A DNA stretch of 64,000 nucleotides from Candidatus Pantoea carbekii (GTDB taxonomy: Bacteria; Pseudomonadota; Gammaproteobacteria; Enterobacterales; Enterobacteriaceae): assembly GCF_000971765.1 (NCBI RefSeq), contig NZ_CP010907.1:496001-560000 (forward strand). The letters are read 5' to 3'. Both the position numbers and the translations under genes were made by a program. This document shows positions 19,565 through 64,000 of the stretch, piece after piece. Below the pieces are notes generated by a model, which was not told the origin of the DNA, made no database searches, and saw nothing but the letters and a program-made list of their open reading frames with translations. Positions within the stretch are counted from its first letter, which is position 1; each line of letters begins with the position of its first letter.

Positions 19565-20083
19565 TTAAAAATGACAGCCTATACCAAAAATCCAAGAACC
19601 TATATCTATAGTACCAACACGGCTTTTTTCATAGCCAATATCTAGAGTGATATGCTTATGTGGGTTTAACTGGATACCTGCAGCATAAGAAAATCCGGTA
19701 GCACTTTTTTTCTGATTCAGATCGTAGCATTTAGTATCGTTAGCATGGGCTTTTCCATAGCCTAAACCTATAATACTATAGACACCTGCCCAATTATTTA
19801 GATGGTATAAGGGGCCAACAGTCACACCATAATATTGACCTTTATGATACATGCCATTGAATTTAATATAATTTCCTTCAATTTCTGTAAAAGAAGCAAG
19901 CCAACTTATTGGGTTATATTGCTGTTCATAATGGTATTTTAAATTAAAGCCAATAACTTGCTCCATAACACCTTGCATCTCACCTTTCGCAAAACCCAAA
20001 TAAACGGTATTCTTTGCTACTGCTGAACCTGTGGACACAGCAAGTAAACAAGCTAGAGCTGAAAGACATGCAATTTTTTTCAT
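19565..20083 (-). CDS. ompX: outer-membrane protein OmpX
   Basis: Eight-stranded beta-barrel of the Ail/Lom/OmpX family in the outer membrane. The frame starts MKKIACLSALACLLAVSTG with a signal peptide cut after SAVA, then shows the strand repeats GFNLKYHYE, YYGVTVGPLYHLN, GFSYAAGIQLNP and ends in GIGCHF with the C-terminal aromatic residue needed for barrel insertion. The start is the ATG at 20083 (GAGGTGG upstream); an in-frame GTG two codons earlier is less likely. Keeping an exposed outer-membrane protein in so reduced a genome suggests a role in the host contact or in the envelope. Confidence 0.95.
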   Translation of the reverse strand: MKKIACLSALACLLAVSTGSAVAKNTVYLGFAKGEMQGVMEQVIGFNLKYHYEQQYNPISWLASFTEIEGNYIKFNGMYHKGQYYGVTVGPLYHLNNWAGVYSIIGLGYGKAHANDTKCYDLNQKKSATGFSYAAGIQLNPHKHITLDIGYEKSRVGTIDIGSWIFGIGCHF

Positions 20084-20133
20084 AACCACCTCAAATCTAA
20101 AGATACTTTTTTCATAATCAGTTCAAATCTGAA
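20074..20133 (-). repeat. duplicated start region of ompX
   Basis: The segment holding the ompX ribosome site and start (AGATTTGA..TG.TTATGAAAAAA on the minus strand) occurs twice about 32 bases apart with few differences. The downstream copy is the true start; the upstream copy creates a second ATGAAAAAA. Confidence 0.8.
20080..20115 (-). CDS. short upstream reading frame overlapping the ompX start
   Basis: From the duplicated ATG at 20115 a frame of 11 codons (MKKVSLDLRWL) runs to a TGA that shares its bases with the ompX ATG (ATGA). This is the geometry of translational coupling. It may be a by-product of the duplication; whether it is translated is unknown. Its ribosome site (TTGAACTG) is weaker than that of ompX. 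Confidence 0.35.
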   Translation of the reverse strand: MKKVSLDLRWL

Positions 20134-21975
20134 TTGAAATTCCTTTAATTCTTTCAAATAAAGAATAAAAAATCAGCAGTAAGAAATTCTATTTATATAT
20201 ATGTTTTCATAACTATAATGATTACATAAAGAAAATTTATCAAATTTAATTCATTCCTTTATTTGATTAAAAATAATTTTTTCTTTATTAAAATCTTAGT
20301 TTAACAAAACTCTTTAATGAAATTATTACAATTCTCTTACATTTTTTACTTAATTAAACTTATTAAAATTAATTTACTAGCTAGTAAGATATATTGTAAT
20401 TTTAGTTGTACCTCCTTAATCACTGAATTTCTACCTATCATATTATATCAACTAATATAGTTAATTATAAAAGATAATTGTATAATTTACATACTTTAAA
20501 TTATAATTACAAATCAATATTTTGCTTAACTTATAGTAATTTTTAAAAAAAGTATTTTTTTTTATATTTTTGAAATTAAATATACAAAATTATATGTATT
20601 AAAATATTGCATATCATATATATTGGTTATTTCAGTATGTTGTACTTGCAATGTTTTATTGATCTTGTTATTTGTCCTCTTCGGTTATAAGACATGTTAT
20701 GTTTATATAGTAATTTTTTTAGTAAAATACTTATTATTAAATTATTTAACCTGGTATTCAGAAATTCTGATTAGGTATTAAATTCATATTAATTTAGTGA
20801 ATACGAGACTTCATAGTACTAATCTGTTCTCTAATTTTATGTTTTAAAAAAAATGTCAAATTTCAATATGCCAGGATAATGTAATTATATAATACTTATG
20901 AATTTCTATATTGTAATTAGTCTGACAAAACATGTATAATAATAGTTTTTGTTTTCTTTGAAAATTATTTTTAAATAATAATAAAAATTTTTTACTATAA
21001 AATTATCAGATATTGTTTAAAAAGCATCAATAACACTATATTTGTCATTGAAAACGAATTACATTATGATAAATTAGCTAGCTGTCTTTTTTGCTAAAAT
21101 GCAGTAATGTTTTAAGATTTATCATATATGCAAATTTCATGTTAAATATAATAAAGTATTGGAAAAAAATGCAGTTAATATATAAATGAAATTTTCATAA
21201 ATAATCATATGTCTACATTAGAGATGATAATAAATCTAAATGCATAAGCTTGATATTTCTATTACTATCAATAATAGACCAGTATAAACGTCTTTTTCAA
21301 AACATTCCTCATATGTATAGGAAAATATGCATATTAATTAAATTTAATCTATATCATTAATATTATTACTAGAGATGTTAAGATTGTTCTTTAGTAAGAT
21401 AGCACACTTATCATAACGATATGCAAACATCATAGTAAAATTAAAGTAACATAATTGTGTATATCTTATCTTGATATCTAAAAATTAAAAACTATGTTAT
21501 TATATCTAACTTGAAATTTTTAACCTATTGATCTAAATAACTCATCCAATTGTATTATTTTTATTGCTATTTTACTAAAAATTTAATTATATTACCTTAT
21601 ATTCATTAAATTTTCCTATATTGCTTAAACTACTGCCATGTCAATATCTATGTGATTTTGGTTTTCAATAACATTATATATCAATCTGATCAACATTTTA
21701 TTAATTATATAATATTATACTTTGAGATTTAAATTTAAAAAATTTATTTAAAAAAAATAGATATTCTATTTCATTTGAAATATTTCTGAACGTAACTTAT
21801 AGTGTTGTTCAGATTATTTAATCATATTACTTCTGAATGTATTAATGATTAATTTAGCATAAGATTTACATGTATCTTAAATACACAATTATGAAGTATA
21901 CAGTTATTATAACGTACAAAGATTTCATTAAAAATATTTTTTTTACATATAAAATTAAAAATATAAACTATATTA
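20134..21975. other. 1.8 kb gap between ybiB and ompX; no gene recognised
   Basis: In E. coli this interval carries rhtA, dps, glnHPQ and others. I could not identify any of them in the six frames by eye. A 76-codon open stretch at 21870-22100 runs into ybiB in another frame and is not a gene. The ompX promoter lies at the left end. Confidence 0.45.
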
Positions 21976-22944
21976 TCAAATACCTACATGTTTTAAATGT
22001 GCTTGTGCCTGTTCTAAAGTTTTTGATTCTCCAGACGCAAGTAAACAGCATGCTAACTGCATACGCAATGATTGCGGTACCATGTGTTCACCGTTTATAA
22101 CCTCTTTAACCCAGATAGCTGTATCACGTGGACTTTTACTTTTCGGAAGCGTGACTGGTAATGCCGGTTCATATTTACACAAGACAGCTGATATAGGACT
22201 AGTACCTTGAATAATGTTCATTTTTGAACAACATAATGGATTGGCATATACTTCTCCTTCTGTCCCAATAAGCAAAATAGCACTTGCTTCTATAGACTGA
22301 AGAAACTTTGTTATTCGAGAGATATATATTAGATGAGAAACACTGGTAATGCGCAAAGCAGCATGCTCGCTAAAAGGATTCACTAATTTTACTAGTGTAT
22401 GTGCACTATTACGTACACCCATACGCCAACGTAAAAGTAACTGATTAGCTATAGGCTTACAAAGACGATCAATACTAATGAATACTAATTGTCCTTGATT
22501 TAATAGTAATTGCATTTCTTCTACTCCGCTTACTTCCTTAATACCCAATTCTGCTAATACTGCGTTTGTAGTAATTCGTGAGGGATCACTTTTAATGCCG
22601 TGTAGTAGTACAGGAAAACCTAGTTTTACTAATAATAAAGCCAGCAAAGGTGTTAGATTTGCTTGGCGACGTGCACCGTTATAACTAGGAATGATAATCG
22701 GCATAGGTCGGTTTAGTGGTGCTTGTAATTGTATTACATGTTGTTGCATCGCATAATAAAATCCGCGTATTTCTTCTACGCTTTCACTCTTAATGCGAAA
22801 TGACATTAAAATACTTCCCAACTCTAAATCTGCTATTTCACCAGCTAAAATCGAACTATAAATCATAACAGCTGTATTATAATCAAGATCACGTACCCGA
22901 TTGTACTTACAACCAATTTTTTTAATTATTTTTTTTATTTGCAT
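21976..22944 (-). CDS. ybiB: YbiB, TrpD-like nucleic-acid-binding protein
   Basis: Member of the TrpD2 group, built like anthranilate phosphoribosyltransferase but reported to bind nucleic acid rather than make tryptophan intermediates. The 322-residue frame matches E. coli YbiB (320) throughout: DLELGSILMSFRIK, PIIIPSYNGARRQANLTPLL, RMGVRNSAHTLVKLVNPF and GTEGEVYANP. dinG normally precedes it; only a doubtful fragment remains upstream. Physiological role is not established. Confidence 0.92.
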   Translation of the reverse strand: MQIKKIIKKIGCKYNRVRDLDYNTAVMIYSSILAGEIADLELGSILMSFRIKSESVEEIRGFYYAMQQHVIQLQAPLNRPMPIIIPSYNGARRQANLTPLLALLLVKLGFPVLLHGIKSDPSRITTNAVLAELGIKEVSGVEEMQLLLNQGQLVFISIDRLCKPIANQLLLRWRMGVRNSAHTLVKLVNPFSEHAALRITSVSHLIYISRITKFLQSIEASAILLIGTEGEVYANPLCCSKMNIIQGTSPISAVLCKYEPALPVTLPKSKSPRDTAIWVKEVINGEHMVPQSLRMQLACCLLASGESKTLEQAQAHLKHVGI

Positions 22945-36061: not shown

Positions 36062-37108
36062 TTACCTCATTGTTAATGATTGTGTGAAAGAGAGCATGCG
36101 ATTTAGGGGTAGTAATGCTGCCTTGCATAATGCTGCATCAACATGAACTTCATGTGCATTGCCACCATGTTCCAATCCATTTGCCATATCTTTTAAATTA
36201 TTCATAGCCATCCAGGGGCAGTGCGCACAACTGCGGCAAGTAGCTCCTTCTCCCATGGTAGGTGCTGCTAGCAATTTTTTATCTGGTACTACCTTCTGCA
36301 TTTTGTAAAAAATACCTTGATCAGTGGCTATAATAAGTTGTGGATGGGACAAAGATTTTGCTGCTTGAATTAGTTGGCTAGTAGATCCTACTATGTTTGC
36401 AAGATCAATAATACCTTGTGGTGATTCTGGGTGCGCTAAAACGGCTGCTTTTGGATACAGTTTTTTCATGCGTTTCAATGCTTGGATTTTAAATTCTTCA
36501 TGTACAATGCATGCTCCCTGCCAAGACAATATGTCTGCTCCTGTTTTTTTTTGAATATAATTGCCAAGATGACGATCTGGTGCCCATATAATCTTTTTTC
36601 CAATACTATCAAGATACTCGATTAATTTAACAGCAATGCTAGATGTAACTATCCAATCAGCACGTCCCTTGACAGCTACTGAAGTATTAGCATAAACCAC
36701 TACAGTGCGATCGGCATGCATATCACAAAATCGACTAAATTCATTGATTGGACAACCTAAATCAAGGGAACATTCAGCATTTAAAGTTGACATTAGAACG
36801 GTTTTTTCGGGACTAAGTATTTTTGCTGTTTCGCCCATGAAACGTACGCCTGCTACCAATAGGTTAGGAGCCGAATGCATACTACCGAAACGTGCCATTT
36901 CCAAAGAATCTGCAACACATCCACCAGTTTCTTCAGCTAATGATTGAATATCGGGATCAGTGTAGTAGTGAGCTATAATTACGGCATTTTTCTTTTTTAA
37001 TAGTACTTTAATTTTATTGCGCCAGTAAGCTTTCTCTTCTGTGCTAATAGATATTGGTTTTGGTGGAAAGTGACGATTTATACTTTTAAAATCGAAAGTC
37101 AAGTTCAT
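36062..37108 (-). CDS. nadA: quinolinate synthase A
   Basis: Iron-sulfur enzyme that condenses iminoaspartate with dihydroxyacetone phosphate to quinolinate for NAD synthesis. The 348-residue frame contains the [4Fe-4S] ligand regions: [26 protein letters not shown] and [13 protein letters not shown], plus [12 protein letters not shown] near the start. Its partner nadB is not in the window. pnuC, next in E. coli, is lost. Probably the genome still makes NAD from aspartate. Confidence 0.96.
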
Positions 37109-37804
37109 GAGACAGCTCTCGTTGTATTATTGCAAATATTATTCAATTAAAAAATAAAGTAGTACAAAAACAATCATATTACCTTAAAGCTAAAATAAAA
37201 TATCTAAATCATCTAAACATATTTTTTTATTTTAAACATTATATTCAATGTTTCGTCAAACCTTATTGATTTTTAATTTAATTATTAAAACTATTCTGGT
37301 AAATTGTATACATTAACATTAATTAAATTTAAAAATTAAAGTTAAATCATTACACTAAAATTCTTTAAAGAATAAATAATGATATTTTTATCAGAAAGAT
37401 AAATTCTATTATGCAAAGCATAATAGAATTTGTTAACATTTTAAATATTAGTAATTAATACATTAAATGAAATTAATTTTACCAATTCTTATCTGAATAA
37501 TATTTCAAATTTTTTCTAAAAAAATAAAAAAATTTTTTTAATATAAACAGTAATATTTTTTTTGTTAGTAAAAAGAGCTGTAAGTAAAATTTACGCAAAT
37601 TTCTTTTTAAAGAGAGAACTCAACTAGATTGCTGTTTATTTACAATAAATAATAAAGTAAATTTATAAACTCACTGAATGTTATTCAGAAACTTAGGTTA
37701 AATAAAGGGAAGGATTACAAGTTAGATAATAATAATTAGTAATACTATTTATATACAATAGTAACGTTTCTATAACTACCTATACATTTTTAATAATGCA
37801 ATAG
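37109..37804. other. gap between nadA and tRNA-Lys
   Basis: About 700 bases. E. coli has a run of lysine and valine tRNA genes before nadA; only one remains at the far end. A 14-bp hairpin (37401-37431) is the only clear structure. Confidence 0.45.
37401..37431. terminator. 14-bp perfect hairpin upstream of nadA
   Basis: AAATTCTATTATGC, a 3-base loop and GCATAATAGAATTT. It may terminate the tRNA transcript or be a leftover of the lost tRNA cluster. On the minus strand a T-rich ATCTTTCT follows. Confidence 0.5.
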
Positions 37805-37877
37805 TGGGTCGTGCAGGATTCGAACCTGCGACCAATTGATTAAAAGTCAACTGCTCTACCAACTGAGCTAACGACCC
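37805..37877 (-). tRNA. tRNA-Lys (anticodon UUU)
   Basis: The minus strand gives a complete cloverleaf: acceptor GGGTCGT / ACGACCC, D-arm AGCTCAGTTGGTAGAGC, anticodon loop CTTTTAA and T-arm with GGTTCGAATCC. It is nearly identical to E. coli tRNA-Lys. The three bases after the discriminator A are CTA rather than CCA, so the tail is not encoded correctly and must be added by tRNA nucleotidyltransferase. In E. coli it belongs to a seven-gene Lys/Val cluster between nadA and cpoB; only this one remains. Confidence 0.97.
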
Positions 37878-38030: not shown

Positions 38031-38858
38031 CTATCCCTCTTTTTCGTATATTATGCATAATCTATCAAGAGATTTATAGGATAACTTAGCGAATTCGCTC
38101 TTAGGAAATCTTTTAATGACTTCCTGACATGCTGCCTTAGCTTTTTGAGTATCTTGCTTATGTTGCTTTATTAAAGCAATATTAAATACACATTCACAAA
38201 CCTTAGAAGATTTAGGATATTTTTTTATTACTATAGTAGAAAAATAATAATCGGAATCTTCGTTATGACCTTTATTGAACAACAATTGACCGAGCTAATA
38301 ATTTGAATCTGCCTGATAAGCAGAATGCGGATAATTTTTAATCCATTTCTTTAAATAATCAATTGTATCCTCATATTATTTTTTATTCACAATCCGATTA
38401 ATAGCTGTATCATAACGACTGCTTGCACTATTAATTTTTAATAATGAATCCATAGTACGATTATTACTACAAACTAAGTCTTTAGTCTTTTCTATTATCA
38501 GGTTTCTATTATCTTGACCAGGTCTTTGATCCATTTTACTAGTAAGATTATTTAAAGTATTTATTTGTTGGCAGATTCTTTTTTGCTGAATAATGATTTG
38601 ATTTAGTTCATAACGATTTTGTTGGATTTCTTCACGTAATATCTCGATATCACTTCCATTTTTAATACTTTTTTGATGTAATTTCTGTAACAACGAAGTT
38701 GCTGAATCAAAAACATGTTCAAGAATATTAAGACGTTGCTTAATTGAGTCTCTATCAATATTACTCTCTATTGCTTGAGCTCTAGTATTGCCAAAAATTA
38801 ATATAACAATCATCAAAAATAATCTTAAAAAATTCAGTCTAACATCATGATTAAACAT
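38031..38858 (-). pseudogene. cpoB: cpoB (ybgF) with two nonsense codons
   Basis: CpoB is the periplasmic TPR protein that coordinates PBP1B with Tol-Pal during constriction. The frame is open end to end apart from TAA at 38376-38378 and TAG at 38295-38297. The N-terminal half has a signal peptide ending TRAQA and the coiled coil with EIQQNRYELNQI. The first stop stands just before YEDTIDYLKKWIKNYPHSAY, and the second replaces W in the family NYWLGQL (here NY*LGQLLFNKG). TPR repeats then continue to the end. No frameshift. Very recent pseudogene, or two short products. Confidence 0.9.
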
Positions 38859-38871
38859 ATAATACTCGTTA

Positions 38872-39380
38872 TTAAATGATTACAGAACGTCGATTTTTAG
38901 TATTTATTTGATCATGCAGGCATATTACAGCAGATCTTTATTTCCCATATGATACTACAGATATTTAATCGCTAATTAACCTTAACTCTATCTATATATC
39001 TGAACTATATTAATACGTTAACTCTATTAGCATGCAACTTAAAGTAAGCATATTTAAATACCGCATTCATATGTATGAGAATAATATCTTTATAAAATGA
39101 ATTGTTACGCACTAAAAGTACATGTCTATAGAATTTTAGGGTAATTAGATTGTAGATCATATTTGTTCAGACCGAAATAAATAATATTTTTTTGCATTTT
39201 ATTAAAAAGTATTTTTTACTGAAGAACAGCATTATTATTCTGAGAAAAAGCACAATTGTAAATACCTGCATGGAGATGCATTTTAATTTAATCAATTCTA
39301 CTACTCTTAATTTGAACTATAAACCCTCAGTTAATAAACTGTATGGCTACTATTATAGTCCTTAATATTTGTTTATTTAT
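38872..39380 (-). pseudogene. pal: decayed pal (peptidoglycan-associated lipoprotein)
   Basis: Minus-strand reading gives MQKNIIYFGLNKYDLQSNY starting near 39196, matching Pal QQNNIVYFDLDKYDIRSDF. RNNSFYKDIILIH follows RSNPSYKVTVEGH, HANRVNVLI follows RRANAVKMYL, and ISVVSYGK then a stop and HDQINTKNRRSVII match ISIVSYGKEK...HDEAAYSKNRRAVLVY, ending at TAA 38872. These are in order, with a few stops and frameshifts. The lipoprotein N-terminus was not resolved. Sits directly before cpoB as in E. coli. Confidence 0.85.
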
Positions 39381-39390
39381 ATATTTTACC

Positions 39391-40600
39391 CTATTCATTG
39401 TGAATATAGCGACTAAACAAGAAATTTAACATCTTGTATATTGTAAGCAATAAATACTTGAAACTCCCCCATTCGTTGAAAAAATTTAAAATAGACATTA
39501 TTTTTCGTATCGCTATAAATTACCATTAATATTAGCAGAAAGACTTGGAGTCTTATTTTAAAGAGTGTCATTTACTCTTTGAATTAATACTGTTTGTAGA
39601 TTTTTTTTAAAAAAATCTTAAATCTTTTTTTATGTCAATTATCATCATGATTTTCGATATCAACAAAAATTAGTATCTTGATTTTCTTATTTAACTAAAT
39701 ACATTAAAATACAACCACAATAATTAATGATATAACTTTGAAGTGCATAAGATCGATCAAAAATATATACCAAAAATTACTATTATGCACTAAGAGGATT
39801 AGTACTATTTATTGTATAACCTTTAATAAGTTGATGCATCTGATCTGAAATTAAAGATATGGTATATATATTTAAACTACTAGTGTTCGATAGTACTAAT
39901 CATAATTTACGACTCTGTAGTTAAAATACTGCTTTACTATGTATGTATAACAAAGGAGATTAAAAACCTGAGGTATTGAATTGTCAATTAATGTTTCTAT
40001 TACTTACTAATATTAATGCAAATTTTTTCATTTAAAGGTAAGTATGGTAATCTTTTTAATATCCGTAGATCAATCTGAGACAATATGGTGGGTTTTATAG
40101 AATAATGAATTATGTAGATTTTCACTATCATAATCGATAACGCAATTCATACGGTAACGTTTTGAGTATTATTTGTTTTACTATATCAACCATAGGTATG
40201 CACGCATGATGCTAGTTCAATATCTATTCATTTTTCAAATACTTCATTGTTAATAGTATTATGCAGATACTAAAATCATTTCTCGGTGATTTTAATAGAT
40301 ATTTAGTATCAATATATTGCTTCTATTAATACCAATATTTATTAATTTATAATAAACTTTACACAATGACTTGAATCAGGACTATTTATAAAAACTTAAT
40401 TCATTCTAAACAGTAGGTGTGATCATGTGCTTTTTTATTCGGTTTTTTGGTACATTACTAATATTGATTGTACAAAATTTGTTAAATCATATAATTTATT
40501 TGAAATAATATTTGAGATATTTTGTATATTGCTTCATTGGATTATCGACTGAAATGATACTACAGCAATTAAAAGATTTGCATGTGTACTTTTCATAATT
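39391..40600 (-). pseudogene. tolB: decayed tolB
   Basis: TolB is the periplasmic propeller of Tol-Pal. The last third is readable on the minus strand. NQDTNF near 39675 follows NQDADV, and SKIMMIIDIKKRFKIFLKKN from 39657 follows GKFMVMVSSNGGQQHIAKQD. Then VNDTL*NKTPSLSANING follows STFLDETPSLAPNG, IFSTNG follows LVSTDG, and NFLFSRYI follows KFPAWSPYL, ending at TAG 39391. Upstream parts are not resolved and the right end is a guess. tolA, tolR and tolQ were not recognised and are probably deleted. Confidence 0.78.
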
Positions 40601-41220
40601 ACGTACAAGCCATAATAAAACAATAACTCAAAATCACATAGGAGCATCTACTTGATTCATTCTTTGGTTTGTATTCCACACTATAATGATAGAAAATTTT
40701 AATAAGTAATTATACAATCTAATAATCATAATCTAGTTGAATTTATTTTACTTTACCTAGAAAGCATTAGTGCATTACCAAAAAAATTTTCACTTTTTAT
40801 AAAGCTAGTTTTGGAATTTTAATTTCTTAGCCATTGCAATAACAAAGTGTATTCATTATATTGAATGCTGCATTTCTTTTTCTAGTTTTATTTTCATAAA
40901 ATAGAAAATATTCAGATAACTTGCTATGTAAATTACAGTTCTTACTTCGATAAACATCCGTATTATAGAGTTGTTATTGAATTGTGATAGCAATTTTTCT
41001 AAGCTAAGAACTCATTGAGATTGCATTAAGTATATAAGATTGATATTTATAATTTTTATTATAATATACCACTACCACTTAGTTACATGACATATTAATT
41101 TTTTTATCTTTAAAAAGGAGTTAAGTAAATTTTTACAGGTATGTTGACTCAAGATCATCCATAATTTGTTTAATATTTTACATTTTTTGTCTTCATTAAT
41201 GTTTTTTATAAACTATAAAC
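40600..41220 (-). pseudogene. cydB: probable remnant of cydB
   Basis: On the minus strand at 40872-40898 the frame reads YENKTRKRN, which matches CydB YRSKIEETRWRN with three residues missing. A weaker match to WLITA lies upstream near 40985. The distance to the end of the cydA remnant fits residues 100-120 of cydB. The C-terminal half is absent, since tolB remains begin too soon. CydB is the second subunit of cytochrome bd oxidase. Confidence 0.5.
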
Positions 41221-41289
41221 TTCAACTTTATTTTTTTGTTAATTGTGATCTCTAAAATTTACTGAATGTTTAGTTAGTCTTTTATTACT

Positions 41290-42930
41290 ACTACATATAA
41301 GTAATTTTTTGTTGAAAATTTTTAAAAATTAATTTTTAAAAATTGTGATTTTTTTATGTTTTCTGTTTTTTTCTTTTAATTACATAATACTTAATATTAT
41401 CTTACAATGAAACTTTCAATAGTTACCTTTTTAATGACCTACTACTCTATCAAAAATTATGATTACCCATTATTGTTTTAACTTATTAATTTTTATATTG
41501 AATTTATCATGATTTTTCTCAGAAATATGCATTCAGAAAACGATTAAAATAATATCAGTTTTTGAATTTTTTATAAGTTAGCTCCGTTATTAATCGATAG
41601 TTAATTACATGAATTTTATATAGTATATGAACTACTAGAATCATTTCATCGATCATATGGCATGATTTTTGTAACGGCAATCCAGCAGATAGGCATTTTA
41701 AATTATATCGCTAGTGTTTTATACGATATCTATTAATGACCAACCTCTACCATTCTATAGATATTATTTTAATAATTATAGCTAGATGACGATTTTTAAA
41801 ATCGGTATTTGATTTATGAGATTTTGGTAAATTCACTTTATACTGTGTGTAATATTTAGAATAATAGTTATAAATATCAATACAAGTATGCACAACTGCA
41901 TCGAGTAATAGCATTATATTAATTTTTCATGCAATATAATGATGCTACGTCTAAATATTCTCACTATTTTAAACCATCTTAATTTACTGCCATGTGATCT
42001 GCTTAATTTATAAGATTTAATGATAATATGAAAACAATTATACATTCTTCTACAAAATTGTAATAGCTTTATTGTGAGTTATCCACACGTTGTCTTAGAA
42101 AAGGATAACAGCTATAATGTCAACAATAACTTTGAATAAATTAATAGCAATAAAAATGTTTGTCGTCGAAATTAGGAACTGTTATTGACACTATAATATG
42201 TTTTACATCTAGCATAGAAAAAACTATGTGCAATAAATACGACACATCCTATGTTTTGCTAACAAACTAATATACCTTCTAATTTAAATAATGGCACTAA
42301 GAAAAGAAATGTAGTTTTCTAAAAATTTTAGTTGACAATTAACAATTATACGTATAACTCATCTCGTTAATTTTAGTTTTACTGACCTATTTCGATTAAC
42401 ATATTTAAGATGAATAAATTCTATAAAAACTAAGTATAATATTTTTTAGCACCACTGAGTTTATTTTAGCACTTGGCCTTTTTAATATGATGTAGATAAA
42501 TTAATTAGAGTAAATTTTACTTTTTTTCTAATTTTATTAATAGGTCAATGTGCATAAAACTAAAAATATTGACATAAGTAACTATTGAAACTTTATCACA
42601 AAATCAACTGACAATAATAAAATCAAAAGTCAAAATTGAGTTGTAGATGTATTATTCATGCTAACAATTACAATTTTTATTTCACTATCTGAAAGATTAA
42701 AAATTACTTTTGTTAATTATATTTCATCGAACAATGTTATCAACATCAGATGATAGATAAACTGGCTTTTGTCAGACTAGATATCCAAAATAGTCTATTC
42801 TCGTTAAGTTGATCTAAATAAATCAAAATATTAGATCATATTCAAAAAAAGATTTTCATTCAAGGTTTATCATTTCTGATGTTAGTACTTGGCAAAAGTA
42901 GTAATCATGCAAATCAAAAAATATAGGTAT
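41290..42930 (-). pseudogene. cydA: decayed cydA (cytochrome bd oxidase subunit I)
   Basis: Minus-strand segments align in order and spacing with CydA. LVC*QNIGCV then VFI near 42235-42300 follows FVHTVASGYV...MFI. RQTFLLLLIY near 42160 follows KRSFAIAASF. AVILF*D near 42095-42115 follows SVIVLGDE. RYRIKH*RY near 41725-41750 follows RNRIGEKKW, and MPICWIAV (WIAV at 41673-41684) follows IPLPWIAV, then PYDR follows EYGR. The heme ligands cannot all be checked. The gene lies downstream of sucD on the same strand, as cydAB does in E. coli. Ends are approximate. Confidence 0.72.
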
Positions 42931-43045
42931 AGATAATAAAAGCATATTAAGTTCTAATAATGCAGTTATTGATTAAGTTGAATAAATTCTGGATACATCC
43001 TATTTTATATGATTAAAAGGTTAAACCTATTTAACATTAAAATAG
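42931..43045. other. sucD: short gap after sucD
   Basis: Contains a small AGGTTaAACCT palindrome but no clear terminator for the suc operon. Confidence 0.3.
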
Positions 43046-61922: not shown

Positions 61923-64000
61923 CTCACGATCCTTAATAAATAGAGATTAGCAAGTATTATAAATCCGAACAATACAAAAAATATATCAAGATTAATCCGA
62001 TTAATTTAGATAAAAAATTATAGAACTAAATGAATAGTATGGCCTATTTAATACATAATATGAAGAATAAAATCATCTAGCTCTATTTGTACAAGTAGGA
62101 AAAACTCTTATTGGTTAAATTTTTTCGTTATTAGAATACCAAAACTATTTCATTATGAATGAAGCATATTTAAATCTTAATAATTTTAATATATTATTTT
62201 AAACGAAAACATTGCTCAATTTGCTATATATATATTAACAAATGTGATCAATTGTATTTTGTATTTATAAAATAAGATTTTATAATATATATTATATACA
62301 TGAAAAAAACAATATCTATTGATATTTTATAGATCAAGTTATTATTTTTCTAAAACTTTTAAATATAATAGTGATTTGTTTTGAAATAACATTTGATCCA
62401 TCAAACATTGTTGATAAATTATAAAAATTTTATTTTTTTGTATTTAATTATTAATTTGAAATATTAACTGAAATGATTTTTCAAAACTCACTACATATAT
62501 TTTATTTTAAATTTAAAATACAATATTATTTTATTGTATACTTTTTTCAATTTATTAATTATTTTTCTATTAAAATTTAAACATCTAGCGGTTTACCTTT
62601 TATTATAAAACATAATGTTTTATTCTTATTAAAAAATATACAATCAATAAAACAGATTTATATCGAATATAAATTTATTTAATAGACGTACTTATCAAGA
62701 AGGTATTAATATAATTTACAATTCAATAAGATAGCCGATTTTAATAATAATTAAATATTTCATTATTCTAAAACACACTTATTAATTCAGTTGATTTTAA
62801 AATAAATATTTTTAATCATAAATTTTGTCTAAAAACCTTAAAGGTTATTATAAATAATAGCAATCAATTAGTTTAAAATAAGATATTATTAACATTAATT
62901 TTTTTAATAAAGAATTATATTCATAATTCGCTGATTTATAAATGTTCATATAATAATAAATTTATTTTATAATTTTTCACATCTCTAAATTTCTTATATG
63001 AATTTTCATAAAATTTATTTTTTAATTAATAAAATGAAATATTTAATATATAAAATACATAATTTATCAATATTGATTATTCAAGTAATTACAATATTAA
63101 CAGTATGTATTTTGTTCTATATAAATTGATTAAACATAAAAACTGTTAAAATATTGGGTTAATGATAAAAAACTGTTGATTAACATCCATACAAAATTTA
63201 AACATTACAAAATATTAGATGGTATTCTCATCACTCGTTTATTTATATACAATTCTTATAAATAATACTGAACTTATTTTTCTAAACAGATTAATAGTAT
63301 AATTAATTTTTTAAGATTATTGTAATAATTTAAATGAAGAAAATGCTAACATTTATCAAATAGATAATATTATTGCTCTAGTTAATTTAAAATATATAGT
63401 AATTTTTATAAAAAATTAATTTATTTCTTCTATACAGATAGGTTTATTTAATATGTATAAGTTAGTTTTAAAAAATTCATTTAAATCATATTTGATAATA
63501 TGACATAGAATCATAATTCTTTTATTTTTAAAAATTAAGAGTATAGATATAGTTCATATATACTAACAACTTTTAAAAACGAATTCTTTTATATTCGCTA
63601 ATGACTTATATTAAATTTAAATAATATTTATAACTTAAAAATTAAGTATTCATTATGCTACTCTTTGATTTAAAAATTTTTTTAGCTAAAATGCTACAAG
63701 ATTAAAGTTAAATTTAAACTCGAATAATATTTCTTTTAATTGGATTTTTTAAAAATTATTGCGAGTATTACGATGAAAATTTTAACTAAATATTCATTAT
63801 TATAAATATTTTTATAAATTTAATATTATTAATGATTTTAAAAAAACGAGTATACATTGACTAATTAGTCAAATAGATTTCTTACTGCTATGATAATAAT
63901 TAATATTAGAATATCTCTCTTTAATAGAGACAGTTTGAATTGTTAACAAAAAAAATTAACAAATATTTTTTCCTAGATAAATATGCATTTCGATGGTACT
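61923..64000. other. 2.1 kb very A+T-rich region without genes
   Basis: From the glnS start to the window edge there is no open frame of note on either strand and no tRNA or strong terminator. By eye it is the most A+T-rich stretch of the window, with long AAAT/TTTA runs. In E. coli the nag genes begin upstream of glnS; I could not read any of them here. The glnS promoter is in the first about 100 bases. Confidence 0.5.

Follow-up and report, generated by a model that had tools for sequence, protein, structure and literature searches.

Candidatus Pantoea carbekii is the symbiont of the brown marmorated stink bug. CpoB (YbgF) is a periplasmic protein which adjusts PBP1B, a peptidoglycan synthase, to the Tol machine. 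We here analysed a stretch of 64,000 nucleotides of the P. carbekii genome, hereafter called the window, in which the cpoB gene is found in a broken state next to the remains of the Tol-Pal genes (Table 1). The window is carried by a contig of 1,150,626 bp, which together with four small contigs makes up a genome of 1,196,948 bp. The published P. carbekii genome, with a G+C content of 30.6% and four plasmids, amounts to 1,197,048 bp (PMC5091035), i.e. 100 bases more, and the chromosome has been published with a size of 1.151 Mb and a G+C content of 30.4% (PMC8032781).

Table 1. Features of the cpoB locus (coordinates refer to the window).
Feature	Coordinates	Strand	Evidence
cpoB (ybgF) pseudogene, two internal nonsense codons	38031..38858	-	translation, profile matches; orthologue intact at the corresponding position of G013
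internal TAA of cpoB; column Lys in G013, Arg in free-living relatives	38376..38378	-	translation, alignment
internal TAG of cpoB, codon of an invariant TPR Trp	38295..38297	-	translation, alignment
pal relic with three stops, split into two fragments in different frames	38875..39239	-	
tolB relic, at least a dozen stops, broken frame; sole tolB match in the genome	39531..40299	-	
tolA relic (C-terminal domain)	40866..41051	-	
tolQ relic	42263..42445	-	
tRNA-Lys(TTT), intact, between cpoB and nadA	37804..37877	-	
nadA, intact neighbour, functional control	36062..37108	-	

Translation of the cpoB frame confirms what a preliminary description of the locus had put forward, namely an extended reading frame with a TAA and a TAG as the only internal stops. 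Hereby, 275 codons and a terminal stop (38033-38031) follow from the ATG at 38858 without any frameshift. In 5000 shuffles of the gene at constant base composition, the frame contains 25 stops on average and at least 11, so that the open frame cannot be attributed to chance. The TAG replaces a Trp (NYWLGQL) which is invariant in the five relatives compared, and the earlier assignment to a conserved Trp therefore stands. For the TAA, an origin from the Gln codon CAA had been suggested; this is rejected, since the column is occupied by Lys in the nearest relative and by Arg in the free-living ones. Apart from the two stops, the TPR part contains one additional in-frame codon (FSTIVIKKYPKS vs. 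FAN-VVKKYPKS), and many conserved residues are gone. With TAA and TAG inside, the gene lacks the uninterrupted frame of a CpoB.

The identity of the gene is evident from profile comparisons. With the stops treated as X, as also for TIGR02795 below, the NCBIfam model PRK10803.1 matches residues 5-265 with 201 bits, compared to 510 bits for an intact CpoB of a free-living bacterium and 250 and 258 bits for two intact CpoB proteins of smaller genomes. TIGR02795 (ybgF) matches residues 147-262 with 88.4 bits (E = 5e-25), slightly below the cut-off of 90.1, and TPR_6 scores 40.6 bits against a cut-off of 26.3, so that TPR repeats of the ybgF type are present in the C-terminal part. In the N-terminal part, the match to TolA_bind_tri (PF16331) is weak (27.2 bits, E = 4e-6, cut-off 30.1); the N-terminus itself has, as judged by eye, a signal-peptide-like start. 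The position of the gene is likewise that of cpoB, with the pal relic upstream and tRNA-Lys and nadA downstream, in the same order as in G013, a related reduced genome of about 1.1 Mb. The cpoB/ybgF locus is single in the genome.

In G013, the complete series sucD-tolQ-tolR-tolA-tolB-pal-cpoB-nadA is open. The corresponding interval between cpoB and position 43045 in P. carbekii (38859-43045, 4.2 kb) holds only relics, all of which contain stops, and the tolB pieces, like those of pal, lie in different frames; no piece of tolR was detected in this interval. Each of its three sense-strand frames contains 119-139 stops, and in none of them does a stop-free stretch exceed 59 codons. The tolQRAB-pal interval has decayed through substitution rather than deletion. 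Its length is still near the ancestral one (4.2 kb vs. 4.7 kb in G013), with a sequence that is almost randomised. A search of the whole genome found no intact TolB or Pal elsewhere; for Pal, it yielded only an open frame for an OmpA-like protein of 362 residues, which scores below the cut-off. The reverse order of loss is seen in G007, a relative with a 0.6-Mb genome, in which tolB is intact, but the trimerisation domain of CpoB finds no match. Elsewhere in the window, positions 62001-64000 and 20001-22000 show G+C contents of 0.16 and 0.20, respectively, compared to about 0.29 in the rest, and are probably further eroded regions.

To place the decay of cpoB relative to that of Tol-Pal, we used conserved columns, amino-acid branch ratios and stop density, because the codon model is saturated (omega of 0.77-0.92 for cpoB) and thus does not separate relaxed from neutral evolution. 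Of the columns conserved in G013 and the free-living relatives, P. carbekii retains a fraction of 0.59 in cpoB and of 0.81-0.92 in the intact genes nadA, sucB, sucC, sucD and gpmA; the 0.44 retained in the Tol relic fragments is a maximum, as only pieces that still match could be found. Compared to intact orthologues, cpoB therefore combines nonsense codons with a loss of conserved residues, as is characteristic of a pseudogene of genome reduction. The ratio of the amino-acid branch lengths of P. carbekii and G013 is 5.9 for the Tol fragments (bootstrap 4.1-8.0), 1.5 for cpoB (1.1-1.9) and 0.7-1.3 for the intact genes, the value of cpoB overlapping with some of the latter in a protein that is fast-evolving anyway. 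If stops were as dense in cpoB as in the Tol fragments, about 13 would be expected, against two observed (P for at most two about 2e-4), even though the gene has slightly more ways than the relics of acquiring a stop by a single change. In a simple simulation which assumes an AT-biased mutation pattern, two stops are compatible with a neutral change of at most about 0.1 per site since the loss. Since cpoB is thus far less decayed than the relics, it would have lost its constraint later, and the sequence comparison points to Tol-Pal as the first to be lost, with cpoB after it. The earlier suggestion that the gene died very recently accordingly holds in a relative sense only: the stop density puts the loss of cpoB much later than that of its operon neighbours.

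An alternative is that the N-terminal 160 residues, with the putative signal peptide and trimerising coiled coil, or else both halves of the protein, are still made and used. The frame preceding the TAA indeed has an ATG, a signal-peptide-like start and the weak TolA_bind_tri match (27 bits, below the cut-off), and a TTG at 38285, from which a restart had been proposed, opens a frame of 84 codons. This TTG is, however, not preceded by a Shine-Dalgarno-like stretch, and its product would begin inside the TPR domain and thus be devoid of the signal peptide of the periplasmic CpoB; for these reasons we reject a restart at this position. Moreover, in the three parts into which the stops divide the gene, the conserved columns have been lost evenly (0.57, 0.50 and 0.64, from the first part to the last), so that no part looks retained and neither half is better conserved, and TolA, known alongside PBP1B as the ligand of CpoB, has been lost. 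Separately made or partly used halves are therefore very improbable. Even less credence can be given to the view that the gene is alive and was misread in sequencing or assembly: assembly errors do not typically take the form of two independent base substitutions, conserved residues are missing throughout cpoB, the partner genes are relics, and the locus, independently amplified by PCR and Sanger-sequenced in about 250 insects, has been published as a pseudogene (PMC7595193, PMC13252635). The seven or eight haplotypes in these sequences likewise render the mixed population considered in the preliminary description unlikely, although the 206-bp amplicon may not span both stops. Finally, readthrough or a changed code, for which only the frame open beyond both stops would speak, can practically be dismissed, as it would need the reassignment of two different stop codons, TAA and TAG, both of which terminate other genes in the window (of its frames with 150 codons or more, 26 end in TAA, 6 in TGA and 2 in TAG), and as the control genes contain no internal stops.

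Taken together, cpoB of P. carbekii is very probably a young pseudogene and as such an ordinary product of genome reduction, with Tol-Pal long lost beforehand. The lineage would have lost tolQ, tolA, tolB and pal long ago, while cpoB would have remained constrained for longer before its function, too, was lost; missense changes scattered over the gene would then have accumulated, together with the two nonsense codons and the additional codon. Without Tol, a coupling to PBP1B would have no purpose, and CpoB might act as a permanent brake that is useless or even a burden. Most likely, the loss of Tol-Pal thus rendered CpoB dispensable, and its decay followed.

The lag of cpoB behind its neighbours may reflect a role that does not depend on Tol, a delay by mere chance or a mild residual use. 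In E. coli, LpoB stimulates the transpeptidase of PBP1B; CpoB holds this stimulation in check, a restraint that is relieved by energised TolA (PMC4458516). The genome of P. carbekii retains an intact PBP1B, the other partner of CpoB, together with an open LpoB-like frame below the family cut-off. LpoA is absent from both P. carbekii and G013, and in neither genome is a class A penicillin-binding protein apparent apart from PBP1B. According to E. coli genetics, CpoB gains in importance when the cell relies on PBP1B and the TPR domain of LpoA is missing, which would fit the lagging decay of cpoB. A persistence of selection on cpoB long beyond the death of Tol-Pal would imply that CpoB acts independently of Tol, e.g. 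on PBP1B; such a persistence appears somewhat doubtful. Stink-bug symbionts at different stages of decay provide a natural test of the usefulness of CpoB without Tol.

That cpoB is a pseudogene in P. carbekii is already known. As delta-ybgF, a putative pseudogene, it has been published as a marker of insect invasion and populations (PMC7595193, PMC13252635), and since the genome contains a single cpoB/ybgF locus, the broken gene described here must be identical to this marker. Two studies sequenced a 206-bp amplicon, one from 194 insects and the other from 56, and obtained seven and later eight haplotypes; the 194 sequences contain six variable sites at more than 99% identity, and the authors regard the gene as a pseudogene throughout (PMC7595193, PMC13252635). 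Gene and species are thus the same as here, while the two stops and the Tol-Pal relics are not described in the parts available. The relics upstream of cpoB are a new context for a known pseudogene. Compared to CpoB (YbgF) of E. coli and other Enterobacterales (PMC4458516), the P. carbekii gene is alike in its TPR repeats and in its place between pal and nadA and probably also in its domain order, with a putative signal peptide and coiled coil ahead of the repeats, but differs by its two nonsense codons and the loss of its Tol-Pal partners. Recently broken genes are also known from other insect symbionts, Sodalis and Symbiopectobacterium, whose pseudogenes can still be partly transcribed but rarely give protein (PMC7067036, PMC13345370).
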